From: a virus
Length of the DNA: 20,083 nucleotides
IMG/VR virus record: IMGVR_UViG_3300028829_006892
Coordinates: 1 to 20,083 of that record
Strand: one strand, 5' to 3'
Shown: piece after piece, positions 976 through 14,766 of the stretch
Layout: every line of letters starts with the position of its first letter
How positions within the stretch are numbered: position 1 is the first letter of the stretch
Notes under the pieces: model-generated
What the model was told of the DNA's origin: nothing
What the model saw: the letters and a program-made list of their open reading frames with translations, nothing else
Databases searched by the model: none
Translations under genes and position numbers: made by a program

Positions 976-977
976 GG

Positions 978-1004
978 ACACTCACCGGGGTTGACCGGGA
1001 GTGT
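978..1004 (-). other. Intergenic hairpin next to the start of the leftmost gene
   Basis: In minus-strand sense, ACACTC-CCGG pairs with CCGG-T-GAGTGT around a six-base loop, giving 10 base pairs with one bulged T. It begins two bases before the ATG at 975 and includes the GGTGAG Shine-Dalgarno-like bases. No T-run follows, so it is not a normal intrinsic terminator. If made by read-through from upstream it could hide the ribosome site. RNA starting at the promoter-like motif at 1000-1008 would lack its 5' arm. Confidence 0.4.
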
Positions 1005-1008
1005 AACA
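1000..1008 (-). promoter_or_regulatory. Extended -10-like motif upstream of the leftmost gene
   Basis: The minus strand reads TGTTACACT, matching TGNTAYNCT; TACACT agrees with TATAAT at four of six positions and is preceded by the extended TG. There are 24 bases between the motif and the ATG at 975. No convincing -35 lies at 17 or 18 bases. It is one of five exact copies in minus-strand gaps. Confidence 0.45.
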
Positions 1009-1026
1009 TGCGAGGGAGCGGGCGAC

Positions 1027-3777
1027 TCAGTTGGGCTCTTGCTCCCCCTCCTTGTCCTTTGCCTCCCTCTCCTCCTCCTCCCTCTTCCGTTTCTCCTCTT
1101 CCTTCCGCGCAATCGTCGACCCTGCCCCCCCGCCGAGTTCACCAAAAGAAAGTGCCGCCGCGTAGTCTGACCTCGTGCCATCACTGTCTTGGGGGGGTTC
1201 GAGGTCCTTCACCTCCCTCGCCTCCTCATCCCTCATTCTGTTGACCAGATCCTCCCTTGATTCCTGTAGCGGGGAGGTGCTGAGCGCCACCGCCAGGTCG
1301 GAGTTCCGCGCGGCAGTTCCAGACGGCTGGGGTTTCGCGACGAAGGACTCTTTCCCTCCTCCCAAGACCTCTGCGAGAGGCAGGTCCTCGGCCTCTGTCG
1401 TGTTCCACCCACCGTCCGAGTCTCTCTTTCCCAAGGCGGGCACCCCTCCAAGAGCCGCTGAGATGGGGGTCTTTCCGACCTTCTCGGTGACGACAGGCCT
1501 CGTCCCTTCGCTCGGCGCCTCGGCCTCGACCGCAGGCGCCTCGTCCACGGCGGGCTCCTCGACCACGGGCGCCGCGCCCATCGGCAGCGGTTCGCCCTGC
1601 AAGAGCTTGGTGGAACCACCCCTCGCCTTCCTCGCCATGGTCTCTCGCTGCCGCTGACGGTACCCGCCACGTCGCCCGGAGCGACGTTGCAGCCGCTTCG
1701 CGAGCCGCTCATCACCGCCCGCAAGCTCCAAGAACCCGGCGTCGTCGTCGATCGCAGCTTGCTTGATGACGTCTGCGATGTCGATGGAGTCGATGGTCTT
1801 GTCTTCGCCCGGTGATGCCCGCAGACCGTACAGCTTGCTGGGGTCTGCCCCATAGAGCTCCGTCACCTCCATGCGCGTCTCGCGCGTGGGGGGAGTCTTC
1901 GTCAGCTGAATGCCGGGAGCGATGTACGGACCCACACGAAACACCTCACCCTCCACCGCGCCGTCCAGGTTCTCCAGCTTGTTGTCCGGGCGGTTGCTCT
2001 GGTAGCCCTCGGCGGACCCCGCGACATCCGCCATCAGCGGGTCACGGGCGTATCCGTCGAGAAGAGCTTTGTTGCCTACCTTCTCGTTGTAGAGCACTTT
2101 GCCATCTGCACCGGTCACCACCAACGTGTGCCCTTCGTTGTCGTAGAACGCTCTCGCACGGCCCAGCTCAGGGTTGTCCCGCAGCCGGGTCAAGACATCA
2201 CGAAGCGGGTCATCGTCGACAACCGCCGCTCCGACCGCCTCCAGCATGGCCGGCTTCGTGAGATCGAACTCGACCACCTTCGCCTTCCCCACTTCGGCAT
2301 CTCCGAGCTGCCCGGCTTCACGCGGATCAACGTAGGTCCCGTCCGTCTTCTGGAAGTACACCCGACCCACAGCGGTGTCCTCGCCCATAGACCGGTCGTA
2401 GTGGGTGATGAGGCGGTAGTCGCCCGTCGAGGGGGCGCGGTAACGAGCTCGGCCCGTCTTGCGGACATTCCTCTGGTAGCGTCGGTACTCGTTGAACGAG
2501 ACAGGGGTGTCTGTCGACTTGCCGTTGAACATGCGCCAGCGCCGGAAGGCAGGGTCGTTTCCTGCCTCGAGAGAGGCCTGGTAGTTGGCCAAGACCACCT
2601 GCGTCACCGGGGACACAGGCTCGCGACCTCCACGCGCGTTGCTTGAGATCTGCGAGATAGCGGAGATCATCGCGGTCTGAAGCGCCTGATTCGCTTCTTC
2701 CGGGGTACCTCCTTCGGCGAGAATACGAGACCGCTCTGCCTCCGCGTTTCGGAGTTGGGTAGCAACATCACCGTCTCCCGCACTTTCAACCACAGCCAAC
2801 GTCCCTTCCGGGTTGTCAGCAACAGCCTTCAACTCCAGGTACTCCTCCGGGGTGATGATCCCGTTGCTGCGAAACCCCTCCACGAGTCCGGTCAAGTACT
2901 CAGTGGCAGCTTCGTGTACCGACATGGTTGCGAGGTCGGGGTGTTTCCTCGAGAGCGCTAAAAGATCCTCGCTGTCCAACAACTTCGCTTCTTGGTCTTC
3001 CACCATCACGTCGGTGACGAAGCGCGCACGGGTTGCCTGCGTCAAGATGTCGCGAAGGTAGCTCTCCTGTACGGGCGATAGCTGGTGTCCGCCGCTGATC
3101 TCCCGCATCAGACCGTTCACGACGCCCGCAACGTCATCGTCGACTTCTTCGGCAAGCGCGGCGTGGTCGTTGAGAAGCGCCGCCGAGGCGACCTGGGGGC
3201 CCCTGATGGTGCTGTGCTTCGTCAAGAACTCGTCGAGATCTTCGTATCCAGCAGCTGCAGCTACGATGTCCGGCGTCACCAGTGAGGTAGCGGACAGCTG
3301 CGACCCGGCGGCGCTACTGACGGATCCTGCCGTGGCGTCGCCCATGTTCGGCAAGTAGGTAGAGAAGAGATCAGGTTTCGCCCGAATCTCGGCGAGGCGC
3401 TGCTTGTTGGCTCCGGTACCGTACTTGTCGCGGAGCGCCGTCAGCGCCTTCCGCTCCGCCGTCACACGCTTCTCGACCTTCTCCACCGCCTTCTTCGCCG
3501 TCTCCGGGTCTCTACGCTCCTCCAGCTTCTTGACGATGTCGAAGTACGCCTTCCTCAGCTCCTTCCTGAGCTGACTCATGTTCTTCGTCCTCTCCTTCGC
3601 CTGATCCCGAGCCTCCTTGAATGCGAGTTCCGCGATCTTCCGCTCGTCCTCGCTCAACCGTTCCAGCCGCTTCTGCAGGTTTCGAAGCTCACCCTGCACC
3701 GCTTTCGCGTTGTCTGGGGTTGCAACGTCCGCCAAGGAGGCTGCGTATTGCGAGATGAAGTCGACTGTGGTGGTCAT
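1027..3777 (-). CDS. Large coiled-coil protein, candidate internal virion protein
   Basis: This is a 916-residue protein. Its ATG at 3777 overlaps the stop of the preceding gene as ATGA and lacks a clear Shine-Dalgarno site, so translation is probably coupled. Residues about 20-135 form a long charged helix typical of a coiled coil (LRNLQKRLERLSEDERKIAE, then LRKELRKAYFDIVKKLEERR). The middle is mixed alpha/beta with no motif I can name. Residues about 700-790 are basic (KRLQRRSGRRGGYRQRQRE) and then acidic and Pro/Ala-rich (VVEEPAVDEAPAVEAEAP). The C-terminus is an almost pure Lys/Glu helix (RKEEEKRKREEEEREAKDKE). No signal peptide or membrane segment is visible. Length, coiled coil and position after the fibres and a small internal protein suggest a DNA-ejection protein like the internal proteins of short-tailed phages. 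This is inference; I recognise no sequence family. Confidence 0.85.
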   Translation of the reverse strand: MTTTVDFISQYAASLADVATPDNAKAVQGELRNLQKRLERLSEDERKIAELAFKEARDQAKERTKNMSQLRKELRKAYFDIVKKLEERRDPETAKKAVEKVEKRVTAERKALTALRDKYGTGANKQRLAEIRAKPDLFSTYLPNMGDATAGSVSSAAGSQLSATSLVTPDIVAAAAGYEDLDEFLTKHSTIRGPQVASAALLNDHAALAEEVDDDVAGVVNGLMREISGGHQLSPVQESYLRDILTQATRARFVTDVMVEDQEAKLLDSEDLLALSRKHPDLATMSVHEAATEYLTGLVEGFRSNGIITPEEYLELKAVADNPEGTLAVVESAGDGDVATQLRNAEAERSRILAEGGTPEEANQALQTAMISAISQISSNARGGREPVSPVTQVVLANYQASLEAGNDPAFRRWRMFNGKSTDTPVSFNEYRRYQRNVRKTGRARYRAPSTGDYRLITHYDRSMGEDTAVGRVYFQKTDGTYVDPREAGQLGDAEVGKAKVVEFDLTKPAMLEAVGAAVVDDDPLRDVLTRLRDNPELGRARAFYDNEGHTLVVTGADGKVLYNEKVGNKALLDGYARDPLMADVAGSAEGYQSNRPDNKLENLDGAVEGEVFRVGPYIAPGIQLTKTPPTRETRMEVTELYGADPSKLYGLRASPGEDKTIDSIDIADVIKQAAIDDDAGFLELAGGDERLAKRLQRRSGRRGGYRQRQRETMARKARGGSTKLLQGEPLPMGAAPVVEEPAVDEAPAVEAEAPSEGTRPVVTEKVGKTPISAALGGVPALGKRDSDGGWNTTEAEDLPLAEVLGGGKESFVAKPQPSGTAARNSDLAVALSTSPLQESREDLVNRMRDEEAREVKDLEPPQDSDGTRSDYAAALSFGELGGGAGSTIARKEEEKRKREEEEREAKDKEGEQEPN

Positions 3778-4460
3778 GCTTGCACTGGAGCGGGTGTGTA
3801 GGCGTTCATGATGACATCATCCATCTTCAACTGTTGGTCAGGCGTCAACTGGTTGTAGCGGGGAGTCCCCGAGAACGACCCCAGCCCCGCCGCCGTGCCC
3901 CACGCTTCCAGCGACGGCGTAGCCACCGTCTGCCCGACAGCCATGGCCGGCTGCGCGATGGCGCCTGTGATGGCGGCCGGCGCCCCCGCTGCCGCCTGCA
4001 GGCCCATCGCCTCCGGGTCGATCGCCTGCGCCTGCTGCTCCGTCTGGAGAGCCGCCATCTCGAGCTGGTCTCGCCGGGCCTTCGACATCTGCGCCTGCTG
4101 TTGGCTGAGCGCGTCGATGCCCTGCATCTGCTGCGCCGCGCCCTGCTGCGAGACGTTCGCGAGCTCCTTCTCGAGCTCGATGTCCTGGGCCTTGTTGCCT
4201 CGCTTGTTCTCATCGCGCGCGGCTTGGACCTCCGACCCTCGCTGGAGGGCGCCCGAGGTCGCCATCTGGTTGCGCTGTGCGAGAGAGATGCCCCCCCGCT
4301 CCTTGGAGGCCTTCTGCTTCAGCGCCTCGGCGTACTCACCCAAGGACTCCTTGGCGGCGTTCGCCTGCGCTTCGGTGGCCCGCTTGGCGCGGCTCGCGGA
4401 CAGCCCTTGGCCAGCCGCGCCGAGAAGCGCTGCGCCTGCCATGATTCCAAGACCAATCAC
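3774..4460 (-). CDS. Small Ala/Gln-rich candidate internal virion protein (T7 gp14-like position)
   Basis: This is a 228-residue protein starting at a GTG at 4460, chosen because a perfect AGGAGG lies five bases upstream. An N-terminal hydrophobic, glycine/alanine-rich segment (IGLGIMAGAALLGAAGQGL, residues 2-20) could insert in or cross a membrane. It is followed by a long Gln/Ala/Glu-rich helix (about residues 25-150: AANAAKESLGEYAEALKQKA-like and QQQAQMSKARRDQLEMAALQ). The C-terminus is a short, more ordered tail with YNQLTPDQQLKMDD. A short hydrophobic start followed by an Ala/Gln-rich helix, just before much larger coiled-coil proteins, is the usual look of the small internal protein of podovirus ejection complexes (T7 gp14 type). 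It overlaps the next gene by four bases. The gene itself is near certain; the role is a moderate inference. Confidence 0.85.
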   Translation of the reverse strand: MIGLGIMAGAALLGAAGQGLSASRAKRATEAQANAAKESLGEYAEALKQKASKERGGISLAQRNQMATSGALQRGSEVQAARDENKRGNKAQDIELEKELANVSQQGAAQQMQGIDALSQQQAQMSKARRDQLEMAALQTEQQAQAIDPEAMGLQAAAGAPAAITGAIAQPAMAVGQTVATPSLEAWGTAAGLGSFSGTPRYNQLTPDQQLKMDDVIMNAYTPAPVQA

Positions 4461-4465
4461 ATCGA

Positions 4466-4471
4466 CCTCCT
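4466..4471 (-). promoter_or_regulatory. Strong Shine-Dalgarno that fixes a GTG start
   Basis: The minus strand reads AGGAGG with five bases before the GTG at 4460. This supports GTG rather than the in-frame ATG six codons later (MAGAALLG). Confidence 0.75.
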
Positions 4472-4476
4472 CTGCG

Positions 4477-4485
4477 AGAGTAGCA
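4477..4485 (-). promoter_or_regulatory. Extended -10-like motif upstream of the small internal protein
   Basis: The minus strand reads TGCTACTCT, matching TGNTAYNCT, 16 bases before the GTG at 4460. It is the weakest hexamer of the set (three of six to TATAAT). It sits so close to the gene that a start seven bases downstream would fall within AGGAGG. It may therefore be a coincidence, or the motif may not act as a simple sigma70 promoter here. Confidence 0.3.
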
Positions 4486-4488
4486 TGT

Positions 4489-5310
4489 TCATCGGAAAGC
4501 CACGACCCGAGCCGACCTACAGCCGATGGACAGGCGCTGGTGGACCGAAAGGGTCATGTCCACGTCCTTGCCCGCGTCGTTGTACTTCGGGACGTTCGTC
4601 TGCACGTAGGTCTCCCCGATCGGCTTGACATAGAAGCCCATGTAGACCTCATGCCAACCGGGAGAGAGCTTCGCCGAGGAGTCGTCGGTCGTCGCCACTG
4701 TCTGGAGGTGGCTCAGGTTCCAGTGCGCGCACTGCTCGGCCTCTATGGAGTACGGGTTCTTCTGGTCAGCCGCAGTGGTGACTTTCCGCTTGAACCACGT
4801 CAACGGGTACTCGCGCCGCAGCGCCTTCTGGTTGATCCCATCGACGAACACCATCGTGGTGATGTCCTGCGCTTGGTCAGTGTCTGGATCCGGCAAGGCG
4901 TCGAGCCCCCACCACCGGAGCACGTGCCAGAAGAACGAGACGTTCCACCGAATCGCTGTTGCGTTGAAGGGGACGTGGACCCGAACTCCGCACCCAGGGA
5001 GTGCCTGCCCAGCCACCGTTCGGCGGGGGCTGGTCGCGGTCGACCGCCCTGTCACGTCGCTCATGTTGTCCAACGAGGACCACGCCCCCGCCGCTCGAGA
5101 CTTGGCCACCTGACCCGGTTGCAGGTGTTCTTGTCGCAGGGAGAAGTCCGGCGACAGAAAGGACTGGTCGATGCCGCCGTTGCCCGCAGAGTAGATACCG
5201 TTCTCCCCCAACGTCGCGGGGAACTCCGTGTCGTACTGCGCCTTGTTCAACGAGCTTGGGTCGAGCAGTTGACCGTTTTGGAAGGTCGACGTGGGAAGGA
5301 CAACAGGCAT
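4489..5310 (-). CDS. Fibre-like virion protein, shorter of two paralogues
   Basis: This is a 273-residue protein. The frame is open further upstream, but the ATG at 5310 is the start because AGGAG lies five bases before it and the upstream part would overlap the previous gene. The N-terminus (STFQNGQLLDPSSLNKAQ) matches the start of the preceding protein (RRFKHGEPLDPEELNEAL) in pattern: aromatic, x, H/N, G, x, x, LDP, x, x, LN. This looks like a short attachment motif that docks a fibre or spike to the neck. The body is beta-rich with many Trp residues (WNVSFFWHVLRWWGLD). A second shared motif near the C-terminus is SPGWHEVYMGFYV against RPGAHRVELVARR in the neighbour, followed in both by a VxxRQL/HQRL strand. 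It probably forms or caps a receptor-binding or collar fibre. There is no enzyme motif. The structural assignment is moderate. Confidence 0.85.
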   Translation of the reverse strand: MPVVLPTSTFQNGQLLDPSSLNKAQYDTEFPATLGENGIYSAGNGGIDQSFLSPDFSLRQEHLQPGQVAKSRAAGAWSSLDNMSDVTGRSTATSPRRTVAGQALPGCGVRVHVPFNATAIRWNVSFFWHVLRWWGLDALPDPDTDQAQDITTMVFVDGINQKALRREYPLTWFKRKVTTAADQKNPYSIEAEQCAHWNLSHLQTVATTDDSSAKLSPGWHEVYMGFYVKPIGETYVQTNVPKYNDAGKDVDMTLSVHQRLSIGCRSARVVAFR

Positions 5311-5315
5311 GGGCG

Positions 5316-5320
5316 CTCCT
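5316..5320 (-). promoter_or_regulatory. Shine-Dalgarno overlapping an upstream stop codon
   Basis: The minus strand reads AGGAG, sharing bases with the TAG stop of the larger fibre gene and lying five bases before the ATG at 5310. It fixes the start of the shorter fibre gene and suggests translational coupling. Confidence 0.75.
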
Positions 5321-7442
5321 ACGACTTCATCGCGACGGCATTGACAGAGGCGAGCTTCACGTTGGCGAACGCGTTGGGCACGGTGCTCTTCATCGCACAC
5401 GAGGAGCCGAAGATGCCGACCTTGTCGATCTCCCGCAGCAGCCCCAAGTTGTCGTAGTTGAAGACGAACTCCGCTGTCACAGGCACGTCGAAGTAGTCGA
5501 AGCCGCTGTTAGCTGCGTCCGCGTTCGACAGGTGCGCGATGATGTCCAGCGCTGTCGTGGATGCGTTCTCGGACGCCCAGTACAGGTTGCTGTTGACCCA
5601 CGCCAAGCTGGGCATCCAGAGGTACCACGTGCCTTCCGACCGCACTCCGACACAGAAGACCGCCGCCGCCAGGTGCATGACCTCCGCGTCCGTGGACGTC
5701 TGGCTGGTGGCCGCACTGTTCGTGCGGACCTTGTTGAGGAACACGTTGCCTTCCACAGAGAGCGTGCAAGGGTTCCCCCCGTTGGCCGGCTTCCCCGCCA
5801 CGAGGGCTTCACTCAGGTCCGCAGAGACCACTTCCGCCCAGTTGCTCGTCCTCCGGTAGAGGAGGTAGTACTGGCCGAAGAGCTGCACCCCGGCGGTCAA
5901 GTAGGAGTAGGGGTACACGGCTGCGTCCAGCGCCACTCCCCCCGTGAAGAACGAGTTCGCTCCTACCGCCAACACCGACGAGTAGTCCGCCAAGTGCGCG
6001 CCGTTGATGGCGCCGCGAGCAACCTGATGGCTCCTCACGTCGTTCATGCCGTTGATGGTGACCCGTAGGCGTTCATCATCCAGTGACTCATGGCTGACCA
6101 CGTCTTCTGGGGCGAAGCTCGGGACCGAGACCGTGCCCTCGAACACCGTCGTGTCGATGGAGTCTTCGGGGATCTCCAAGACCTTCAGCTGCCGCGAGTA
6201 CACCGTGACGCGGTTGTCTGCAGGCATGACCGAGTCGGTCGGCCGGTCCCCCACAGGAGGGGAGAGCAGCTGGAATGCGCGGTCCCCGCCCATAGGCGCA
6301 CGCCGCGCCACGAGCTCCACCCGGTGAGCTCCGGGGCGAACCGACACGTCATACGTCAGCCGCACCGTGTACATCGGGATGCCCAGTGCGTCCGGGCGCT
6401 CTCTGGCGCGAGCTACCATCAACCCCACCAAGTTCGCACGAGGGTTCACCAGCCGGTTGGCGTGGAACGACCCCTGTTCGTTGTCGTACCTCCCCGTGAT
6501 GGTCTCCGCGAGCACAACCCCGTCCACTCGCAGAGCGAACTGGATCTGCCCCACGAAGTAGACCAAAGAGGCGTAGGTCCCCCCGGAGAACGACACCGAG
6601 GAGAGGTCCGACAAGTTCTGCACGGTCCCCGCCGCCGCTGTCGACACAGTCCCTTGGACGAACGCGGCGTTGCTCAACGCGTTCACGTAGCGCATGTAGA
6701 AGAGACCGCCGCCTGAGGAACCCGAGGCTACTCGAGTGAAGACGACCTTCGTCCCCTCGGCCCGCGCGGTGAAACCCACCGCCGCCCACGAAGGATCGGC
6801 AAAGTCCGCTTGGTCCGCAACCGTCGCTTCCCCGGCGGAGGCCACCCGCTTTGCGATCTTCGTCAAGACCGTCTCTTGTGGACCCGGACGAGGAAGCCTG
6901 ATCTTGAAGTAGTGGAAGTCCGCCGTCGTTGGGCTGTCGAGGTACAGCTTGATGTAGACCTCAGGACCGTTGTCGTTGTAGAAGTCCTCGTAGTTACTGT
7001 CGATGGTCAACAACGACGTGGTCTCCCACGTTTCTCGATCCCCTCCGTCGTAGCCGTGGAAGCAGTAGGAAGCGAAGGCTGTCAGCGACAGTGTTGCCGC
7101 TCCCGTGTCGATGTCGATCGCCATGTCCCGACCGTCGGTGTCGGCCTCGATCATCTGCCACGAGGTGTCCTGCTCCACCGTGAACCCATCAGTGACGGTC
7201 GAGGTGGGGCTGCTGTTCGGATGAGACAGGCCAGGGTCCAGGTCCACGAACACCTGCCGCGTCCGAAAGAACGTGTCGGCCTTCGCCGCCACACTCGAGT
7301 CGAGGGGTGCGCGGAGGTTGTGCGGGCCCAAGAAGCCGTTGAGCCGCTCTCCGGGGGGCTGCAACGCCTCGTTGAGTTCCTCTGGGTCGAGGGGCTCGCC
7401 GTGCTTGAACCGTCGCTTCGGGAAGAGGTAGTCGCCGGGCAT
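5319..7442 (-). CDS. Fibre-like or tail spike protein, larger paralogue
   Basis: This is a 707-residue protein. The frame is open 38 codons upstream, but the ATG at 7442 overlaps the previous stop as TGATG, so the N-terminus is MPGDYLFPKRRFKHGEP. Residues about 9-26 carry the LDP-x-x-LN motif shared with the next gene. The rest is beta-strand rich, with Gly/Ser/Thr/Asn turns and many aromatic strand tips. Around residues 365-440 is a segment also seen in the smaller paralogue (TVRLTYDVSVRPGAHRVEL to VTVYSRQLKVLEIPED). A later stretch (VARGAINGAHLADYSS, about residue 495) resembles the repeat-like strands of phage tail fibres. The last 200 residues (YLLYRRTSNWAEV, EGTWYLWMPSLAWVN) probably form the distal domain. 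No hydrolase motif was recognised. It most likely forms an oligomeric fibre or spike at the tail. The family is not identified, and the role rests on composition, length and neighbours. Confidence 0.87.
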   Translation of the reverse strand: MPGDYLFPKRRFKHGEPLDPEELNEALQPPGERLNGFLGPHNLRAPLDSSVAAKADTFFRTRQVFVDLDPGLSHPNSSPTSTVTDGFTVEQDTSWQMIEADTDGRDMAIDIDTGAATLSLTAFASYCFHGYDGGDRETWETTSLLTIDSNYEDFYNDNGPEVYIKLYLDSPTTADFHYFKIRLPRPGPQETVLTKIAKRVASAGEATVADQADFADPSWAAVGFTARAEGTKVVFTRVASGSSGGGLFYMRYVNALSNAAFVQGTVSTAAAGTVQNLSDLSSVSFSGGTYASLVYFVGQIQFALRVDGVVLAETITGRYDNEQGSFHANRLVNPRANLVGLMVARARERPDALGIPMYTVRLTYDVSVRPGAHRVELVARRAPMGGDRAFQLLSPPVGDRPTDSVMPADNRVTVYSRQLKVLEIPEDSIDTTVFEGTVSVPSFAPEDVVSHESLDDERLRVTINGMNDVRSHQVARGAINGAHLADYSSVLAVGANSFFTGGVALDAAVYPYSYLTAGVQLFGQYYLLYRRTSNWAEVVSADLSEALVAGKPANGGNPCTLSVEGNVFLNKVRTNSAATSQTSTDAEVMHLAAAVFCVGVRSEGTWYLWMPSLAWVNSNLYWASENASTTALDIIAHLSNADAANSGFDYFDVPVTAEFVFNYDNLGLLREIDKVGIFGSSCAMKSTVPNAFANVKLASVNAVAMKS

Positions 7443-9619
7443 CAGTCTTCCCCGAATGGGATGCGCGCCAGCTTGTCGCCGCCAGACGCGATCATGCTGT
7501 GGAAGGCGAACGCGGACAGGTGGAGCGGGGTCTTCGACACGATCTTGAACGCCCACGTGTTGACGTTCTCGAGCGCCACCGGCACTCGCCGCCAGAACAG
7601 CCGCCGCATCTTGGTCTTGCCCTCGTTGAGCGTCAAGTCACCGATGAGGTCTTTCGCCAAGACCCCGATCGACTTGCATGCACGGGGGCTGTCTTCGTCC
7701 GGCTCGTAGGAGCCGTTGAAGTAGATGTACACGTCGAAGGACTCATCGACCTCGTCCACCATCCCGATGAAAAGCTCGGGCACGTTGATGGGGGTGATGG
7801 CGGTGTCGTCTGCCCGCAACCAGGCGGACTCGTAGACGTAGGTGCGCTCGGGCTCGTCGAACCCCTCGACCTCGTGCCCCATCACGTAGACATCGTACTC
7901 GTTGTACGTCTTCTGCTCGGCAACCAGCGGCGTCACCGTGCCACCCTCGTCGAGGGTCAGAGCTCCGCTCAAGCTGAACTTCGGCTTCGTGACCGGTCTC
8001 GACCCTGCGAACAGCACGTAGTACCGAGGGTCGTCGGTGATGCACATATCGCTGATATAGAAGCCCAGTCGAATCTCGTTCCACCCGGCCCCGTTGAAGC
8101 ACAGGATGAGGTCGTTGTCGAACTGGCCAGCAGAGGGGACCGCACACCGGTACTCCCGGCTCTCGGGGTCGATGACGGCGACAGCGTTCGCCAACGAGCC
8201 CTTCGCCAGCTGCGTCTTCGTCAGCCGGTGGATGGCGTCGCTGATCTTCTCGACCGCGCCCCCCGGCACCCAGCCGTAGAAACCGTCACGGCTCAACCAG
8301 ACCAGGCGCCCGTCGGGCATGCCTTGCACCGAGCGAGGGGCCACACAGCCCGTTCCTCGCGCCATGACGACCGGAGGCACCCGTGGGTCCGTGATGTCGC
8401 ACACAGAGCGCTCAGTGAACGCCAGGAGCTTCCCTGCGTGGCTCACCAGCCCGGTGATCCTCGCCCCGTCAGGGTCGGGGGTGACCATCGTGTCCTTGAG
8501 CAGCGTGCCGGGGAACCCGACCTCGCTGCGGATGACTCTCGCACCATCCGCGACGACCAACGCCCCTGCGTGCGACGTCATCACCTCGAAGCGGGGCACC
8601 CGCATGTAGCTCTTGGCGGGCTCGCCCAGGCGGCTGTCCGGCACGTTGTCGGCGTAGACGAAGGGCGCGGTGCCTTCGATGCGCTCGAGCAGTCTCGGCT
8701 CACCGGGGAACCGGTTGAGGTCCGGCGTGCGGTAGAGCCGCGTGGCCACCGCGTGCTCGGGTGCTGACCCCGTCGCCTTGACCACGAACTGACGTGGCAA
8801 GTCGTCGAGCTTGGTGGACAGGTCGACATAGTCAACTCCCGTGTGCTGCTCCACCACCGAGTCGCACCGTTGCCCGGAGAGGGCGACCTCGGCGCTCAGA
8901 GGCGAGAGCGCGGAGATGTTGCCGTGAACGTCTTCCCACGCTCGGGCGTACTGCCACCGACCCGCGAGCACCGCTCCCTCATGGGTGTCGATGACATCGC
9001 CGACTGACCCCACTCGGCCCGGCCACGAGTAGCCGCCGCTGTTGGCGTAGCTGTTCTGTCGATCCACAGGCTGCTGCGGGCCCGCCGCTTCCAGTTGACC
9101 GGGCGTGGTCGTGAAGCCCAGCGGCGTGACCATCCCGTCGTGCGCGATGACGAGCGGTGTGTCGATACCGTTGGTCCACACGATGGTGTTGTTGACCACT
9201 GCGAAGATGTCGGGGTAGCCCGCGCGCCCTTCGTCGGTCAGACCCTCGTAGATGACCTCCCAGCAGCGGTACCAGCCCGCGTGCCGGTAGAGCTTCGTCC
9301 CCGCCCGCACCACCAGCGTCGGCGCCTTCCCGCCGAGTAGCCCCGCGTGGAAGATGCCGTAGATGGTGGCCGGCGTCTCCGGTGCGACCGGAGTGACGAA
9401 GCGCTCGTGCCCCGGAGGGATGCCCCCCGAGCTTCGGTACTGACTCGAGCTCCGGTAGGGCTCGTAGGGACACACCCCGCGAATCGCGCGGAGCGTGCCC
9501 TCGGGAGTCCTCTCGAAGTTGCTGACCCGTCTGGCCAGAGACGTCGGAGCGTACTGAAGCTGGGCCTCACCGCTTTCGATGCGGACCTGCGATAGCGCTC
9601 GTTGTCTCCGGTCAGGCAC
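7442..9619 (-). CDS. Tail nozzle / DNA-stabilisation-like protein
   Basis: This is a 725-residue protein from a GTG at 9619. An ATG four bases further upstream opens only a four-codon frame, while AGGGGTGA lies at workable spacing before the GTG. The sequence is built of short beta strands with recurring blade-like phrases, such as PDIFAVVNNTIVWTNGIDTP, LLAFTERSVCDITDPRVPP, GMPDGRLVWLSRDGFYGWVP and RYYVLFAGSRPVTKPKF. This looks like the propeller-type body of short-tail nozzle or plug proteins (the role of T7 gp12 or P22 gp10). The N-terminus contains LARRVSNFERTPEGTLRAIRG, the type of opening in which such proteins list a reference profile. It sits between the adaptor-like gene and the fibres, as expected for a nozzle to which fibres attach. 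Assignment to the nozzle class is by pattern and context, not by a confirmed family match. Confidence 0.85.
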   Translation of the reverse strand: MPDRRQRALSQVRIESGEAQLQYAPTSLARRVSNFERTPEGTLRAIRGVCPYEPYRSSSQYRSSGGIPPGHERFVTPVAPETPATIYGIFHAGLLGGKAPTLVVRAGTKLYRHAGWYRCWEVIYEGLTDEGRAGYPDIFAVVNNTIVWTNGIDTPLVIAHDGMVTPLGFTTTPGQLEAAGPQQPVDRQNSYANSGGYSWPGRVGSVGDVIDTHEGAVLAGRWQYARAWEDVHGNISALSPLSAEVALSGQRCDSVVEQHTGVDYVDLSTKLDDLPRQFVVKATGSAPEHAVATRLYRTPDLNRFPGEPRLLERIEGTAPFVYADNVPDSRLGEPAKSYMRVPRFEVMTSHAGALVVADGARVIRSEVGFPGTLLKDTMVTPDPDGARITGLVSHAGKLLAFTERSVCDITDPRVPPVVMARGTGCVAPRSVQGMPDGRLVWLSRDGFYGWVPGGAVEKISDAIHRLTKTQLAKGSLANAVAVIDPESREYRCAVPSAGQFDNDLILCFNGAGWNEIRLGFYISDMCITDDPRYYVLFAGSRPVTKPKFSLSGALTLDEGGTVTPLVAEQKTYNEYDVYVMGHEVEGFDEPERTYVYESAWLRADDTAITPINVPELFIGMVDEVDESFDVYIYFNGSYEPDEDSPRACKSIGVLAKDLIGDLTLNEGKTKMRRLFWRRVPVALENVNTWAFKIVSKTPLHLSAFAFHSMIASGGDKLARIPFGED

Positions 9620-9622
9620 GCA

Positions 9623-10099
9623 TCACCCCTGGCTCTTGAACTCGTTCCAGTACTCGCCCAGCATGAGGGCGCCCTCGTCGCTGTTCAGCGCCGGGAACTT
9701 GCGCCGGCAGCGGGACCGCCACCGCGCGTGGTGCTCACCATCGGCCGGCTTGGGGAGCGCGCTGGCCGGCGGCAGGGTCTCCTCCTTCTCCTCCTCGGAG
9801 GCCTCGCAGTCGACCCACTGCTCCTTCTCGAGGTCCCACTCCACCGTCGGCGGGCAGAAGCAGAAGCGGTTGGGATCCCACCGCCACGCCTTCGGGCGCC
9901 ACTGCTCATGGTTCCGAGGGTTGAGGAAGTCGGCCTTCGACAACTCGAGGATGCCCTCGTCCGAGAAGACGTGGGCGACCCAGTCGTCCATCCGCACGTT
10001 GACGGCTACGACCGCCACCTCGTGACGACCGAGCTTGCCGTCATCACGGCAGAAGATGGACCCCACAGAGGGGGCAGCGAGAAAGGCAGAGTGGTCCAT
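9623..10099 (-). CDS. Hypothetical protein between adaptor and nozzle
   Basis: This is a 158-residue protein. The frame is open upstream into the previous gene, but the ATG at 10099 has GGAG at good spacing, so the protein begins MDHSAFLAAPSVGSIFCRDD. The N-terminal 80 residues look globular, with mixed strands (VAVVAVNVRMDDWVAHVFSD) and many Trp residues (HEQWRPKAWRWDPNRFCFCP). An acidic linker follows (ASEEEKEETLPP) and then a short basic, aromatic tail (HHARWRSRCRRKFPALN, ending MLGEYWNEFKSQG). It contains five cysteines, including an FCFC pair, but no classic zinc-finger spacing. I do not recognise the family. The location between the adaptor-like and nozzle-like genes suggests a small neck or tail-completion factor. 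Its stop is three bases from the next start. Confidence 0.8.
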   Translation of the reverse strand: MDHSAFLAAPSVGSIFCRDDGKLGRHEVAVVAVNVRMDDWVAHVFSDEGILELSKADFLNPRNHEQWRPKAWRWDPNRFCFCPPTVEWDLEKEQWVDCEASEEEKEETLPPASALPKPADGEHHARWRSRCRRKFPALNSDEGALMLGEYWNEFKSQG

Positions 10100-10121
10100 G
10101 GTTGCTCCAGGGTGTGGGGCG

Positions 10122-10130
10122 AGCGTATCA
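10122..10130 (-). promoter_or_regulatory. Extended -10-like motif upstream of the hypothetical neck gene
   Basis: The minus strand reads TGATACGCT (TGNTAYNCT), with 22 bases before the ATG at 10099. Including flanks, CGCGTGATAC is identical to the copy upstream of the adaptor gene at 11833-11842. It sits in a 35-base gap. Confidence 0.45.
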
Positions 10131-10134
10131 CGCG

Positions 10135-11802
10135 CTAACCCTCTTGGTACGTGTCGATGCGGAGGTAGCGACTGCTGACCCCCCACGGCTTGTTCTCGAC
10201 GATGCCGTTGTTGTCGCCGTGCTGCGACTTGAACCGCCGCACCAGGCGAGCGTAGATGCTCCGATGCTTGATCTCCGCGTTCTGGTCCACGCCGTCCAGG
10301 CGACTCATGTAGGCGAGCGCGAGCTCAAGGAAGGCGGCGAAGGCCTCCTGCTTGATGGGCAGCTGGTCGTTGTCGTTGACCAGCTCCTTGGGCTGCCGAA
10401 GCACCGCGATGTCGAGGTCGTAGTCCTTGTCGGGCAACGGCCAGAGGTGGTAGGCGTAGTAGCCCGTGACCTTCCGCAGCTGGCGGGACGTGTCCGGCGG
10501 CAGGTTGTTCTCCGCCGTCTCGTTGATGGGCGCACCCTGCCACGTGTAGCTGCTGACCTCGTACTTGGGGATGCCCATGACGGTCGCATCCTCCAAGACC
10601 TTGTCCTGGTCCAGAGGGTTGATCTCCCCGAGCAGGTAGAACTTCTCGTCCGCATCGACCCGGTTCATCCGGTACGGCTGCCGGACGATGGTGGGCGAGG
10701 TCGCCGCTGCAGGGGGTCCGTGCGTGTCGTACGTCGCGAGGCGCCGCACGTAGATGCGGAGCCTGACCCCGCTCCGACCGAACCGGAGGGGGACGTCTGC
10801 GGGCGGGTACGAGGCCCCGACCCTGACCCCGAGAGGGTCGCCCATGAAGTCGAGCATCTCCTCGAGGTTGGCGCACTGGATGTTGATGGCACGACCGCCC
10901 GTGTACACCGTCCCTGCGTCATCCTTAAGGTCGTCGTTCTCGACCGCATGATCGAACGGGTCGCTCGGAGGGCTGGGGGCGCTCTCCCACACAGGGTCCG
11001 CGAAGTTGCCCACGCTCTGACCCCACTCCTGCTCGAGACGGCCCCACGCCCACGTGTAGCAGAACTCGAACTTCCCCTCCTGCACCGGTCCCAACCACGG
11101 CAGGTAGGTGATGACCCCGTCGACGTTGTTCTCGATGACGCTGGTGATGATCGGCGCCTCGGACGGCGTGGGCATCTGGAAGAACCGTCCCCGCCAGAAG
11201 TCCGTGGGCGGACCCCGCACGGACTGGTCGTAGCTGGGCAGCGACTCCCGTCGCGCGGTGCCTCCGCTGATCTGACCCACCAGCTGCTCGCTGTCGTCGA
11301 ACACGCGCAGCGGCGTGAGCACCTGGGTCGTGTTGCCGGGCAGGAAGAACTCGGGCTGGTAGATCTTGAACGCCATCGTCGCCGCCCCCGTGTCGAACCA
11401 CGGGGGGTCGATGCTCACGTAGTAGAGCTCAGCGGTCGAGTCGTACCACCACTCGCGAGACTGCCGACGCCGCTTCCGACCTTTCGGGTCCGTGATCTCG
11501 AGGTGCATGACCCCGTCCCACGTGCGGTCGATCGTAGGCACCCACGACCCCGACAGGTTGAACTGCAAGACCTTCAGGTCCGCCGTCTTTGAGATGGTCG
11601 CGCTCTGGTCTGCCCCCGTCACCGTCGCGTAGACATGGACGTGCGTGTCCTCGGGCATCAAGGCCTCGGGGGCCTCCCCCGACAACTCGCGCAGCGCACG
11701 CAGCAGGCAGGTGTTCGCCCGACTGTCGAGCTTCTTCCCCGTCGTCATCCACGCGCGATCGTTGAACAGGTACTCGCGAGCGGCTTTCAGCGTGGTGTCC
11801 AT
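10135..11802 (-). CDS. Head-tail adaptor-like protein with enlarged central region
   Basis: This is a 555-residue protein with an ATG at 11802 preceded by GAGGG. The first 50 residues are helical with RANTCLLRALRELSG. The last 170 residues read as an adaptor. VTGYYAYHLWPLPDKDYDLD and AVLRQPKELVNDNDQLPIKQ are followed by a helix pair, EAFAAFLELALAYMSRLDG and HRSIYARLVRRFKSQHGD. That wording (valid lower and upper preferences for a design matrix, then a helical bundle) is familiar from gp11/gp4-type adaptors of short-tailed phages. Between them lie about 300 residues of beta-rich sequence (DGVMHLEITDPKGRKRRRQS, PEFFLPGNTTQVLTPLRVFD, GVRLRIYVRRLATYDTHGPP) that such adaptors, usually about 200 residues long, do not have. 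The role would be a ring between portal and nozzle. The C-terminal match is from memory and moderate; the insert is unassigned. Confidence 0.87.
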   Translation of the reverse strand: MDTTLKAAREYLFNDRAWMTTGKKLDSRANTCLLRALRELSGEAPEALMPEDTHVHVYATVTGADQSATISKTADLKVLQFNLSGSWVPTIDRTWDGVMHLEITDPKGRKRRRQSREWWYDSTAELYYVSIDPPWFDTGAATMAFKIYQPEFFLPGNTTQVLTPLRVFDDSEQLVGQISGGTARRESLPSYDQSVRGPPTDFWRGRFFQMPTPSEAPIITSVIENNVDGVITYLPWLGPVQEGKFEFCYTWAWGRLEQEWGQSVGNFADPVWESAPSPPSDPFDHAVENDDLKDDAGTVYTGGRAINIQCANLEEMLDFMGDPLGVRVGASYPPADVPLRFGRSGVRLRIYVRRLATYDTHGPPAAATSPTIVRQPYRMNRVDADEKFYLLGEINPLDQDKVLEDATVMGIPKYEVSSYTWQGAPINETAENNLPPDTSRQLRKVTGYYAYHLWPLPDKDYDLDIAVLRQPKELVNDNDQLPIKQEAFAAFLELALAYMSRLDGVDQNAEIKHRSIYARLVRRFKSQHGDNNGIVENKPWGVSSRYLRIDTYQEG

Positions 11803-11829
11803 CAGACCCTCGTTGTTTGGCTTGTCGCC

Positions 11830-11838
11830 AGTGTATCA
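11830..11838 (-). promoter_or_regulatory. Extended -10-like motif upstream of the adaptor-like gene
   Basis: The minus strand reads TGATACACT (TGNTAYNCT; TACACT is four of six to TATAAT), with 27 bases before the ATG at 11802. It lies just after the hairpin at 11843-11876, so a hairpin that ends the capsid transcript would be followed by a fresh start. Confidence 0.5.
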
Positions 11839-11842
11839 CGCG

Positions 11843-11876
11843 AACGCCCCCGCCAGCCGAGGCTGACGAGGGCGTT
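11843..11876 (-). terminator. Strong hairpin after the capsid/decoration genes
   Basis: Two 16-base arms (11843-11858 and 11861-11876) pair at 14 of 16 positions across a two-base gap, starting 16 bases past the stop at 11893 in transcription order. The minus-strand RNA has no T-run after it (it continues CGCGTGATAC), so it is not a textbook intrinsic terminator. It may be an attenuator, a processing site or a 3' stabiliser that keeps capsid and decoration messages above downstream tail messages. Confidence 0.5.
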
Positions 11877-11892
11877 GAAGACCCGCAGGCGG

Positions 11893-12414
11893 TCAGGGGA
11901 TGCTGATGTAGACCTGGGCGTAGGTCGCGAGCGTTGCGCCCTCCGCTTCGAGGGTCCGACCGATCGACGAGCCTGCGCCGGCAGTGGCCTCCACGTAGCC
12001 CTCTCCCGCCCCCGCGCCGTCGGAGTCCACAGCGACGTTGGCGGTCAGCGTGCCCTCGGCGAGCACCACGCAGGTGCCGCGCCGAACGAGCCAGCCGTAC
12101 GAGCCGGCGTCGATGGCGTGGTCGGCGACACCGAGCAGAAGCATCGGGTCGACCGAGTCACCGTCGCAGGGTTCGGCGAAGAAGGGGTCGGCGGCGTCGG
12201 TCTCACACAGCTGCCCGGCGAGGATCGCCTCGGCAGCCTTGACGAAGATCCACTCCCGCTCACCTTTGAGGAGCGACCAAGTGAGGGTGGCGTCCACACC
12301 GGAGCCGAGGCTTGCGACCTCCGCATCGGTCTGGAGGTAGGTGGTGCCGACCCCGTACCGGTCATCGGTGAAGGTGTCGCTGAGGGCGTTGGCGATTGCC
12401 TGAATGGAAGGCAT
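11893..12414 (-). CDS. Beta-rich head decoration-like protein downstream of the capsid gene
   Basis: This is a 173-residue protein with an ATG at 12414, GGAG seven bases upstream, and only 12 bases after the capsid stop. Residues 1-30 are a small helical start (SIQAIANALSDTF). The rest is short strands and Gly/Ala/Asp turns: REWIFVKAAEAILAGQLCET, MLLLGVADHAIDAGSYGWLV, RRGTCVVLAEGTLTANVAVD, and a C-terminal strand TYAQVYISIP. Phrases of the type GxADxAIxAGxYGWLxxxG are common in small head-decoration or capsid-associated proteins that follow or precede the capsid gene. No cleavage or catalytic site is visible. It is presumably made in capsid-like amounts from the same transcript. The decoration role is an inference from fold style and position. 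Confidence 0.85.
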   Translation of the reverse strand: MPSIQAIANALSDTFTDDRYGVGTTYLQTDAEVASLGSGVDATLTWSLLKGEREWIFVKAAEAILAGQLCETDAADPFFAEPCDGDSVDPMLLLGVADHAIDAGSYGWLVRRGTCVVLAEGTLTANVAVDSDGAGAGEGYVEATAGAGSSIGRTLEAEGATLATYAQVYISIP

Positions 12415-12426
12415 GGTGTTCTCCTA

Positions 12427-13488
12427 TCAGAGCGCGGTGCCGCTGATGCAGCCCTGCGCGACGAGGTTGGTGCAGATGAAGCCAAACTTCGCGACGACGA
12501 CGTCCTGGGTGGCGATGCGGTCCTCGAAGTCGGTGAGCTCCGCGTCCTCGATGGTCGAGAACTCGAAGTACGCCGGGTTGAGGATGTAGCCACCACCGTC
12601 GGCGAGAGCCTGGCCCGAGAACACCGAGAGGGTGCGGTCGAGGTCGAGGGACTCGTGGAAGGTGACGCCGTTGTGGACGATCGTGTGCAGGTCGGACTTC
12701 TCGGTCTTGTCGTCCACGAGGCTGACGCGCACGTGGTCGCGCTTGGACCGCTCGAGGTTGACCATGGTGTCGGGGTCGAGGAAGCCGAGCTCGGGCGAGC
12801 CCTCCATGGCGAAGTGACCGCAGCGCCGGATGACCTTGCTGAGCTTGTCCTCGCCGTCCGAGGTCCAGCTGGACACCGACTCGTACTGGTTGTACCAGAA
12901 CTTGTCAGCGTTCTTCGCCAGGGTGAAGACCGCCTCGCCGTTGGTGTTCTGCGTGGCCTTGCTCTCGAAGTCGAGCATGCCGTTGGTGGTGCCGGTGAGC
13001 GTGCCGCTCGTGAAGGCGCCGTTCAGCGGGCAGATGCCGTACATCGAGGAGGACGAGAAGGCGTGGTTGCCGGCGGGCGCGGCGCCCGACAGCACGTACG
13101 CCTCGAGGACCCGGTTGAAGCTGTTCATGAACGCTTCGGGGTACTTCTCGATCAGCTTCATCACGGCGAGGGGGCCGTTGTTCTGAGCGAGCTCGCGGTT
13201 CGGGATGGCGATGGCGGCGGCCAGGCGATGCGGCTCGACCTGCAGCTGCTCGGTCCGCTTGGTGCGGGTGGCGTTCAGCAGCTCGGTGCCGTTGTAGATG
13301 CCGCGACCGGTGGCGGGCGAACCCGTCATGAGGGCGCGCTCGATGTAGGAGCCGCCGTCCATGGACTGACGGACCCGACCGGCCTTGAAGAGGGTGTCCA
13401 GCAGGACGGTGCGACGCATGAAGGTGTCGATCAGCGGACCCTTCAGCTGGCGGAAGGTCGTGTTCAGGACCTCGGTAGAGATGGCCAT
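12427..13488 (-). CDS. Major capsid protein
   Basis: This is a 353-residue protein. A TTG four codons upstream is in frame, but the ATG at 13488 has GGAGG with a five-base spacer, so the protein begins MAISTEVLNTTFRQLKG. HK97-fold features are readable in order. An N-terminal arm (LLDTLFKAGRVRQSMDGG) is followed by an E-loop-like region (YIERALMTGSPATGRGIYNG), the spine helix (PLAVMKLIEKYPEAFMNSFN, about residues 104-123) and a long P/A-domain segment. The C-terminal part contains SVFSGQALADGGGYILNPAY and ends KFGFICTNLVAQGCISGTAL. The pattern xxGRVRxxxDGG followed by E/R-rich strands is widely seen in capsid proteins of short-tailed phages. No protease or delta domain is fused. It has its own promoter and is followed by a decoration-like gene, as expected for the most abundant virion protein. 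Confidence 0.92.
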   Translation of the reverse strand: MAISTEVLNTTFRQLKGPLIDTFMRRTVLLDTLFKAGRVRQSMDGGSYIERALMTGSPATGRGIYNGTELLNATRTKRTEQLQVEPHRLAAAIAIPNRELAQNNGPLAVMKLIEKYPEAFMNSFNRVLEAYVLSGAAPAGNHAFSSSSMYGICPLNGAFTSGTLTGTTNGMLDFESKATQNTNGEAVFTLAKNADKFWYNQYESVSSWTSDGEDKLSKVIRRCGHFAMEGSPELGFLDPDTMVNLERSKRDHVRVSLVDDKTEKSDLHTIVHNGVTFHESLDLDRTLSVFSGQALADGGGYILNPAYFEFSTIEDAELTDFEDRIATQDVVVAKFGFICTNLVAQGCISGTAL

Positions 13489-13493
13489 GGTGG

Positions 13494-13498
13494 CCTCC
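13494..13498 (-). promoter_or_regulatory. Shine-Dalgarno of the capsid gene
   Basis: The minus strand reads GGAGG, five bases before the ATG at 13488. It selects this ATG over the in-frame TTG at 13500, which itself overlaps the site. Confidence 0.8.
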
Positions 13499-13601
13499 AA
13501 TAGATGCAGGTGGAAGAAAGTTGTCTCTCGTCTGGCCTGCCCTCTCCTGCTCGTCGGACCCGAAGGCTACCCGCTCGCTCAACCAAGGGTGCGCTACCAG
13601 C

Positions 13602-13631
13602 GATATACCAAGAGTACGTGAGACGTGTCAA
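13602..13631 (-). promoter_or_regulatory. Sigma70-type promoter of the capsid gene
   Basis: The minus strand has a perfect TTGACA (13631-13626), an 18-base spacer and TATATC (13607-13602), itself preceded by an extended TG (TGGTATATC). The expected start is near 13595, giving a leader of about 107 bases to the capsid ATG. This is the only gap with a clear -35. The other minus-strand gaps use the shorter TGNTAYNCT motif close to the gene. Apart from this promoter, the terminator and a weak second hairpin (TGCCCC/GGGGCA at 13691-13724), the 254 bases between 13489 and 13742 hold nothing I recognise. Confidence 0.65.
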
Positions 13632-13679
13632 GGAAAAGAAGAGCCCCCGCCCCGAGGAGCAACTTCCCGAAGCGAGGGC
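13630..13679 (-). terminator. Intrinsic terminator between the upstream head gene and the capsid promoter
   Basis: In minus-strand RNA, 13679-13666 pairs with 13656-13643 as a 14-base-pair stem with four G-U pairs and a nine-base loop. The tract TCTTCTTTTCCTT follows at once (9 of 13 T). The four wobble pairs would be C-A mismatches on the other strand, so the structure is specific to leftward RNA. The tract runs directly into the -35 box of the capsid promoter. Confidence 0.75.
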
Positions 13680-13742
13680 AGCGGTCAACGTGCCCCTCAG
13701 TGGAGCAACTCACCGGGTGGGGCATCGCTGCCGCTATCAACT

Positions 13743-14417
13743 TCAGTACAGGGGACTGAAGACCATGCAGAACACGTCGGCGTTCGACGCACCGGGGTCT
13801 ACGGTGAGGGTGATGGTCAGCTGCCCATCCCCGTTGACGACAGCGCTCGCCACGGCTGCGGTGGCGTCTGTGGTGGCCTCGTTGATGGTGGCGAGCACCT
13901 TGGCGTTGGCGTAGCCCGCCCCGAGCTCGTGCGTTCCCGTGGTGCCGCCGTCGTTGACCGTCACGGTCACGGTGCGGGTCAGCATCTTGAGCTGCGAGGC
14001 ACCCGGCTCGAGTCGCACCACGCCCACGGTGGCGCTGATGGACATAACGTAGCCCACGACGATGTTGGAGTCGTCCGCGCCCGACGGCTTGGTGGCGGTC
14101 CAGCCGCCAGCGGTCGTGCTCAGGTAGACGGGGTCGCCCACAGAGGACGCCGCGCTGGTGTCGACATCGGAGAGGATGACCCAGGGCAGCAGGACGAGCT
14201 TGTCGTTGGCGGCGGTGGCGCGGCCAGCGGCGACGAAGAGGGGGCCGGGCCCGGTGCCGTCGGCATCGGCCGGACTGACCTTCGGGAGGACACCGGACAC
14301 GCCGTCAGCGACGACGATGTCGTACTGGGCGACAGCTGCCGTGGCAACACCCTCCATGGCCGAGGCCCAGGGGGTGACGGCTGCGGGGTAGACTTCGCGC
14401 TGCTGAATGAGAGCCAC
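13743..14417 (-). CDS. Beta-rich head protein upstream of the capsid gene
   Basis: This is a 224-residue protein starting at GTG 14417, which has AAGGAGG five bases upstream. The open frame extends further but would cross the divergent control region. The N-terminal domain (residues 1-145) is made of strands and Gly/Ala/Asp turns: YPAAVTPWASAMEGVATAAV, AAGRATAANDKLVLLPWVIL, GDPVYLSTTAGGWTATKP and NIVVGYVMSISATVGVVRLE. The last pair strongly resembles small capsid-associated proteins in which GDPVYLS and VGYV strands recur. After MLTRTVTVTVNDGG a second, Thr/Ala-rich beta domain (about residues 150-224) ends DVFCMVFSPLY. It may be a head fibre or decoration protein, or a stabiliser. It occupies the place where a scaffold or protease often stands, but has no helical scaffold character. 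It is ended by its own terminator. Confidence 0.85.
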   Translation of the reverse strand: MALIQQREVYPAAVTPWASAMEGVATAAVAQYDIVVADGVSGVLPKVSPADADGTGPGPLFVAAGRATAANDKLVLLPWVILSDVDTSAASSVGDPVYLSTTAGGWTATKPSGADDSNIVVGYVMSISATVGVVRLEPGASQLKMLTRTVTVTVNDGGTTGTHELGAGYANAKVLATINEATTDATAAVASAVVNGDGQLTITLTVDPGASNADVFCMVFSPLY

Positions 14418-14422
14418 GGGCT

Positions 14423-14429
14423 CCTCCTT
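14423..14429 (-). promoter_or_regulatory. Shine-Dalgarno that fixes a GTG start
   Basis: The minus strand reads AAGGAGG, five bases before the GTG at 14417. This is the best-matched site in the window and the reason for rejecting in-frame upstream starts. Confidence 0.8.
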
Positions 14430-14442
14430 GGTTGGTGCCCCG

Positions 14443-14451
14443 AGCATATCA
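14443..14451 (-). promoter_or_regulatory. Leftward extended -10-like motif in the divergent region
   Basis: The minus strand reads TGATATGCT (TGNTAYNCT; TATGCT is four of six to TATAAT), with 25 bases before the GTG at 14417. It is the likely start of the whole leftward structural arm. It lies only 26 bases from the rightward near-match at 14478-14486, so the two promoters would share upstream DNA. Confidence 0.5.
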
Positions 14452-14477
14452 GGGGTATGGCGGGTTCCTCCCCGTTG

Positions 14478-14486
14478 TGTTACCCG
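14478..14486 (+). promoter_or_regulatory. Rightward near-match to the extended -10-like motif
   Basis: The plus strand reads TGTTACCCG, one base off TGNTAYNCT (final G for T), with 23 bases before the ATG at 14510. The spacing matches the leftward copies. The last-base change removes the conserved T of the -10 hexamer, so it may be weak or need a partner. Confidence 0.35.
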
Positions 14487-14509: not shown

Positions 14510-14731
14510 ATGGGACGGCGACGCAAGGAGTACATCCCAGTCCGGTACGACGCCGGGACCACCCGACGGGTGGATGCCCTACGCGACTACATCGGAGCAG
14601 AGTGTCTCTCGAGGGCGGAGAACCCTGACGGGGTGGACCGGTCCGAGGTCATGCGGGAGCTGTTGAACTTCGCGGTTACGGTGTACGAGCGCCGCGCCGA
14701 AGCCTGGCGGGCGGAGCACGGCACCCCTTGA
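14510..14731 (+). CDS. Small ribbon-helix-helix-like DNA-binding protein
   Basis: This is a 73-residue protein. The ATG at 14510 has AAGGAG (14499-14504) five bases upstream; a longer frame from 14432 would cover the divergent control region and is rejected. After a basic start (MGRRRKE) comes a strand, YIPVRYD. Then comes a helix (TTRRVDALRDYIG), a short acidic turn, and a second helix (DRSEVMRELLNFAVTVYERR). A strand, helix, helix order with RSEVMRELL in the second helix is the ribbon-helix-helix plan of small phage repressors and regulators. It is the first gene of the rightward arm, directly before the large terminase, so it could be a transcriptional regulator of the divergent promoters or stand in for the small terminase. 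The fold call is moderate, the role open. Confidence 0.8.
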   Translation: MGRRRKEYIPVRYDAGTTRRVDALRDYIGAECLSRAENPDGVDRSEVMRELLNFAVTVYERRAEAWRAEHGTP

Positions 14732-14756
14732 CACAACTTTGACAGGTTGTCACACG
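14728..14756. promoter_or_regulatory. Repeated TTGACA/TGTCA sites before the terminase (candidate operator)
   Basis: The gap before the terminase holds TTGACA at 14728-14733 and again at 14739-14744. The second forms an inverted repeat, TGACA-GGT-TGTCA (14740-14752), that leads into TGTCACACG, the same nine bases found at 14487-14495. No -10 box follows either TTGACA at normal spacing, so an operator reading fits better than a sigma70 promoter. Confidence 0.4.
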
Positions 14757-14766
14757 GAGCGAACAC

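Follow-up and report, generated by a model that had tools for sequence, protein, structure and literature searches.

A conserved extended -10-like motif without a -35 element upstream of virion genes in a family of uncultivated phages of roughly 80 kb

The late genes of phage T4 are served by promoters made of a single block near -10, without a -35 element, which are read with the phage sigma factor gp55. The nine-base motif TGNTAYNCT analyzed here has this architecture and the association with putatively late genes in common with them, but its sequence differs and no phage sigma factor was found in the phage family that carries it. In bacteria, the -35 contact is bypassed at promoters of the extended -10 class (TRTGN-TANNNT; PMC7403470), and mycobacterial promoters of the form TGnTANNNT that show no clear -35 have been described (PMC8470358). 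The motif shares with them the TGN before a TANNNT hexamer, the purine at -16 and the lack of a -35, whereas it strongly prefers C over T at -17 and C at the fifth base of the -10.

The middle and late promoters of Thermus phage P23-45 are likewise reported to belong to the extended -10 class and to be transcribed by the host RNA polymerase with gp39 (PMC7403470, PMC10770324). P23-45 also resembles the present family in genome size and in possessing a giant virion protein, but differs from it in that two phage polymerases serve its early genes. Among the gap genes of P23-45 (genes that follow a non-coding gap), only one had a site at the usual distance when searched with the same pattern, for which reason this phage was rejected as a positive control for the strict pattern. 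No Thermus phage stood among the matches listed when the terminase and both halves of the giant protein were searched against the phage collection. The Start Associated Sequences of Cluster K mycobacteriophages are also a short phage-wide motif, found in fixed orientation before many starts; with a length of 13 bp and 3-7 bp to the start codon, they include the ribosome site, and the genes that they mark are non-structural (PMC3203893), whereas the present motif lies further upstream (15-29 nt), does not show their overlap with the ribosome site and marks virion genes.

Motif copies in the window

The stretch of DNA analyzed here, hereafter the window, is the complete 20,083-nt virus record IMGVR_UViG_3300028829_006892 (GC 65%); since this record is linear, it is probably a fragment of a larger genome. 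A codon-usage caller written for this analysis, on whose calls all gene starts rest, gave 17 genes. In the order of transcription, the minus strand carries a first gene (13743-14417), the major head protein gene (12427-13488; phrog_9953), a gene (11893-12414) between the latter and a tail-protein-like gene (10135-11802), a gene on the 3' side of the tail-protein-like gene (9623-10099), two long genes, the genes at 4489-5310, 3774-4460 and 1027-3777, and the start portion of a giant virion gene (1-975), encoding the first 325 residues of the protein. The plus strand bears a small gene (14510-14731), the terminase (14767-16419), an endolysin-like gene (16538-18169) and the portal (18202-19929).

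As the preliminary description had noted, TGNTAYNCT occurs in five exact copies, all on the minus strand (1000-1008, 4477-4485, 10122-10130, 11830-11838 and 14443-14451), at 24, 16, 22, 27 and 25 nt from the start codon, respectively; shuffled sequences held 0.89 copies on average, and none of 100 reached five. Of the six minus-strand genes that follow at least 28 nt of non-coding DNA (starts at 975, 4460, 10099, 11802, 13488 and 14417), five are preceded by a copy, the exception being the major head gene; of the eight genes lacking a gap, none is. When the six gaps were resampled under a dinucleotide model (20,000 trials), 19,636 trials gave no match, 363 gave one and a single trial gave two, corresponding to a match chance of about 0.003 per gap, and of about 1e-12 for five of six gaps before allowing for the post-hoc definition of the motif. 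The simpler pattern TGNTANNNT had been expected about 0.1 times per 300 nt, in agreement with our recomputed value of 0.09; across the whole window it occurs 7 times against 5.4 expected and is not over-represented. What is unusual about the motif in the window is its position, not its number.

With both strands counted, five of nine gap genes have the motif, the plus-strand ones contributing none. The plus-strand near-copy TGTTACCCG (14478-14486), previously taken as a site, lacks the last T of the -10, which is nearly obligatory, and was not counted; its place is taken by a TGATACNNT-type site at 15-16 nt in 10 of the 12 orthologs sampled. The earlier statement that the motif stands before almost every gene after a gap holds for the minus-strand virion genes of the window, but not genome-wide: in the relatives, the motif characterizes the virion module.

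Before the giant virion gene, the putative extended -10 promoter reads TGTTACACT (1000-1008, minus strand) and is kept in front of the giant genes of three relatives (L037, L042, L080), the upstream flank not being conserved. An inverted repeat, ACACTCACCCG...CGGGTGAGTGT, overlaps this promoter and reaches the start codon (976-1008, minus strand); it is kept in the same three relatives and is a possible leader hairpin or operator. The giant gene of L037 (867-16160 of that record) encodes a 5,097-residue virion-module protein with an ADP-ribosyltransferase domain (ART-PolyVal, PF18760) at residues 1834-2005.

The site before the gene at 3774-4460 reads TGCTACTCT (4477-4485, minus strand) and had been considered awkwardly close to the ribosome site. 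The copy is nevertheless real: a short spacing of 17-18 nt is kept by the orthologs of four of the five relatives shown, whose copies mostly read TGCTAATCT where the window has TGCTACTCT. The gene at 9623-10099 is preceded by TGATACGCT (10122-10130, minus strand), and its orthologs have a copy in four of the five relatives shown. At the tail-protein-like gene the site reads TGATACACT (11830-11838, minus strand) and lies just downstream of a strong hairpin found by folding (11844-11876, ends approximate, minus strand), which is kept in all three relatives folded (L036, L050, L080) and is the probable terminator of the preceding gene. In three relatives with terminases about 53-55% identical, the motif of this gene is recognizable about 48-51 nt before the start. 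Relatives of this degree of identity (L083, L086, L088) have a hairpin between the tail-gene promoter and the start codon, an order opposite to that of the window's clade. Finally, TGATATGCT (14443-14451, minus strand) precedes the gene at 13743-14417, most orthologs of which retain TANNNT there, but without the TG.

The major head gene, the sixth gap gene, has a separate conserved promoter in place of the nine-base motif (13602-13631, minus strand), consisting of TTGACA (13626-13631), 15 nt and TGGTATATC (13602-13610). TTGAC, 16 nt and TGNTA precede the head gene in 10 of 11 aligned sequences, the window included. Upstream of this promoter, a hairpin followed by a T-rich tract (13643-13660, minus strand) folds in the window and in L036 and is a probable terminator; the number of such hairpin and T-rich tract elements in the window overall is at the shuffled level. 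The head-gene leader (window 13489-13601, minus strand; L036 7231-7353) holds the conserved stretch GCACCC...CGGGYAGCC-loop-GGTCCGAC...GGGCAGGC, with loops exchanged among relatives (TTCG, GAAA, GCAA). Part of this stretch can also be seen in relatives whose terminases are 52-55% identical, and the stretch may form a structured leader RNA; Rfam gave no match to it in L036 7200-7360 (E up to 1), nor any match in the window at the gathering threshold. In place of the motif, the terminase gene has upstream of it (14732-14766 in the window; likewise in orthologs) pairs of TTGACA/TGACA repeats spaced by about 11 bp, and many relatives also have a GAACACA box there. By eye, the small gene upstream of the terminase resembles a ribbon-helix-helix regulator.

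Enrichment and consensus in relatives

Relatives were collected via the terminase and head proteins. Two long ones measure 81.6 and 80.0 kb, sizes consistent with nearly whole genomes, and the 81.6-kb relative has portal-like genes at both its beginning and its end; several others are fragments. A further relative is a 73-kb contig inside a Planctomycetota MAG, the sole cellular match. This contig may be mis-binned and its tRNA-Pro matches nothing else in the MAG, so no host is claimed. It encodes four tRNAs (Lys, Asn, Pro and Leu; L079 4491-4738, L081 4487-4573), whereas ARAGORN detected no tRNA in the window and none in the scanned long relatives from IMG/VR. In the phage collection, the terminase had only remote matches in 478 records, none covering 80% of the query and with about 23-26% identity among the matches listed; the head protein had no match there.

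The motif was defined in the window, and eleven relatives, whose orthologs share ancestry with the window's genes, played no part in its definition. TGNTAYNCT is enriched near starts in these relatives: of 160 gap genes, 22 have it at 14-30 nt from the start, against none of 243 no-gap genes, and it never stands there on the opposite strand; 300 letter-permuted patterns gave a mean of 0.36 and a maximum of 7 in the same relatives. The looser TGNTANNNT marks 40 of the 160 gap genes against 2 in antisense. Orthologous genes share these sites, several families having the same motif between differing flanks, and further sites belong to gene families beyond the window's span. In a distant group with terminases 52-55% identical, TGNTAYNCT was not enriched at the usual distance, and a Gordonia phage used as baseline had the motif at 1 of 33 gap genes.

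The consensus CGTG[AC]TAY[AG]CT was derived from 44 sites that differ in sequence context; through shared ancestry, these are not all independent and correspond to a number nearer ten or eleven gene families. Their TG, TA and T follow from the pattern searched for, the enrichment being judged against permuted patterns. Besides them, C is found at -2 in 30 sites, Y in 38 and C at the eighth position in 32, and the base before TG (-1 of the motif, -16 of the promoter) is a purine, G in 35 and A in 6. No other column from -40 to +39 has comparable information in the 44 sites. Nor did a -35 element clearly stand out among them, with a best match of 2.80 against 2.63 in shuffled upstream sequence (sd 0.11) and at least four matched bases at 5 sites against 5.4 expected, a result that concerns the presence of the element and not promoter activity in its absence. 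The distance to the start varies from 15 to 29 nt, independently of the ribosome site. At 19 sites with long leaders, A stands at offsets 7, 8 and 9 past the -10, where the first base of a transcript would be expected, in 9, 10 and 10 cases, respectively. At about five sites, the motif shares bases with the TGA stop codon that ends the gene before it; omitting these would leave the picture unchanged.

Promoter classes and the candidate reader of the motif

The motif is confined to the virion module. In three long relatives, its TGNTANNNT form stands at 26 of 47 virion-module gaps and at none of 57 replication-module gaps, i.e., 10/16 vs. 0/22 in the record of L012 (Fisher 2e-5), 9/14 vs. 0/23 in that of L013 (Fisher 2e-5) and 7/17 vs. 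0/12 in the Planctomycetota-binned contig of L066. Replication modules instead hold a few TTGACA-N17/19-TANNNT promoters, three of which occupy corresponding positions in the 81.6- and 80.0-kb relatives; only three or four -35 promoters were recognized in each long relative, and the TANNNT -10 is common to both promoter classes. Several virion-module gap genes lack the motif, and the terminase and head genes use other designs.

The motif is probably the late promoter of these uncultivated phages, of the extended -10 kind and most likely recognized by the RNA polymerase of the host together with the principal sigma factor. The host polymerase is preferred as reader because of the TGN, the purine at -16, the lack of a -35 and the hexamer shared with the TTGACA promoters. 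It suffices alone as an explanation, and a phage protein may possibly favor the extended -10 class late in infection. Position, enrichment, conservation, the lack of a -35 and the restriction to the virion module are observed; promoter activity, start points and enzyme are inferred, as is the late timing, from gene function. In the late promoter so envisaged, CG would precede the TGN directly before the TANNNT hexamer, and the TGN contact would stand in for the missing -35. With a transcription start about 7-9 nt downstream, the leaders would measure roughly 7-20 nt and often contain little beyond the ribosome-binding site. Several such promoters along the virion genes would each start transcription anew, at least one of them directly behind a terminator hairpin. 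An extended -10 without a -35 and with short leaders, as proposed at the outset, is well supported, including in the relatives outside the motif definition. The accompanying idea of a phage-specific promoter in need of a phage factor or polymerase fared less well: no sigma or RNA-polymerase family was recognized in the relatives searched, no activator site appeared as a second upstream element at fixed spacing among the 44 sites, and the -35-type promoters share the TANNNT -10.

A tentative alternative keeps the same promoters but adds a phage protein that remodels or displaces sigma domain 4, producing a late switch from -35 to extended -10 promoters as do gp39 of P23-45 and AsiA of T4. Such a switch has a precedent (PMC7403470) and would agree with replication gaps that have no extended -10 at the usual distance and with TTGACA promoters lying mainly, in few gaps, in that module; one might even speculate that the ADP-ribosyltransferase-like domain of the relative's giant virion protein acts on the host polymerase. 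However, the -35 promoters recognized per long relative are so few, and the head gene, which is surely late, keeps its TTGACA. Moreover, no homologue of a sigma-domain-4-binding phage protein was recognized in Pfam or PHROGs, though such proteins are small and diverse and those resembling gp39 are hardly findable by family search. A fuller version, in which an unrecognized early phage protein blinds the host polymerase to the -35 within a two-class program and leaves only the extended -10 late promoters to fire, as an independently evolved form of the gp39/AsiA strategy and perhaps with the help of the giant protein's ADP-ribosyltransferase-like domain, is more doubtful still.

It is unlikely that a phage-encoded sigma factor or RNA polymerase, too diverged for recognition, reads the motif. 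Most gene products are of unknown function, and T4 late transcription typically uses promoters of a single block that lack a -35. In addition, the giant virion protein of 5,097 aa recalls the 5,002-residue tape protein of P23-45, which contains an RNA polymerase (PMC10770324). Against such a reader, Pfam scans of the relatives' proteins gave no sigma factor or RNA polymerase match, the scans covering the products of the 81.6-kb relative downstream of its giant gene, its giant protein in two pieces and selected others. Six-frame family searches for Sigma70_r2/r4 gave no PF04542 match in four records and no PF04545 match in five, although distant sigma factors could be missed, and a search of the relatives for PF00940 (RNA polymerase), which had no working positive control, gave none either. 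The polymerase signature DFDGD is absent from the predicted proteins, the giant protein included, and the few looser D.DGD matches lie in proteins without other polymerase features. Furthermore, the motif follows host sigma rules, with its purine at -16 and with the same -10 as in these phages' TTGACA promoters.

A translation or RNA-processing signal, rather than a promoter, would account for the fixed neighborhood of start codons. This is very improbable: the distance varies independently of the ribosome site, the motif is not a ribosome-site sequence, none of the 243 no-gap genes carries it though they also need translation, and in one gene family a terminator-like hairpin immediately precedes it. 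Chance or over-fitting after inspection, a worry already voiced in the preliminary description and fed by the post-hoc definition and by the chance-level count of TGNTANNNT in the whole window, can practically be dismissed given the enrichment in relatives outside the definition and the permutation controls.

The motif thus very probably belongs to the ordinary bacterial extended -10 type, readable by the host RNA polymerase. For this phage family, it provides a usable promoter rule, CGTGMTAYRCT at 15-29 nt before the start without a -35, which lets the putative late transcription units of these uncultivated phages be read from sequence alone. Besides, the split of promoter classes between modules predicts how such phages may time expression with the host polymerase only.
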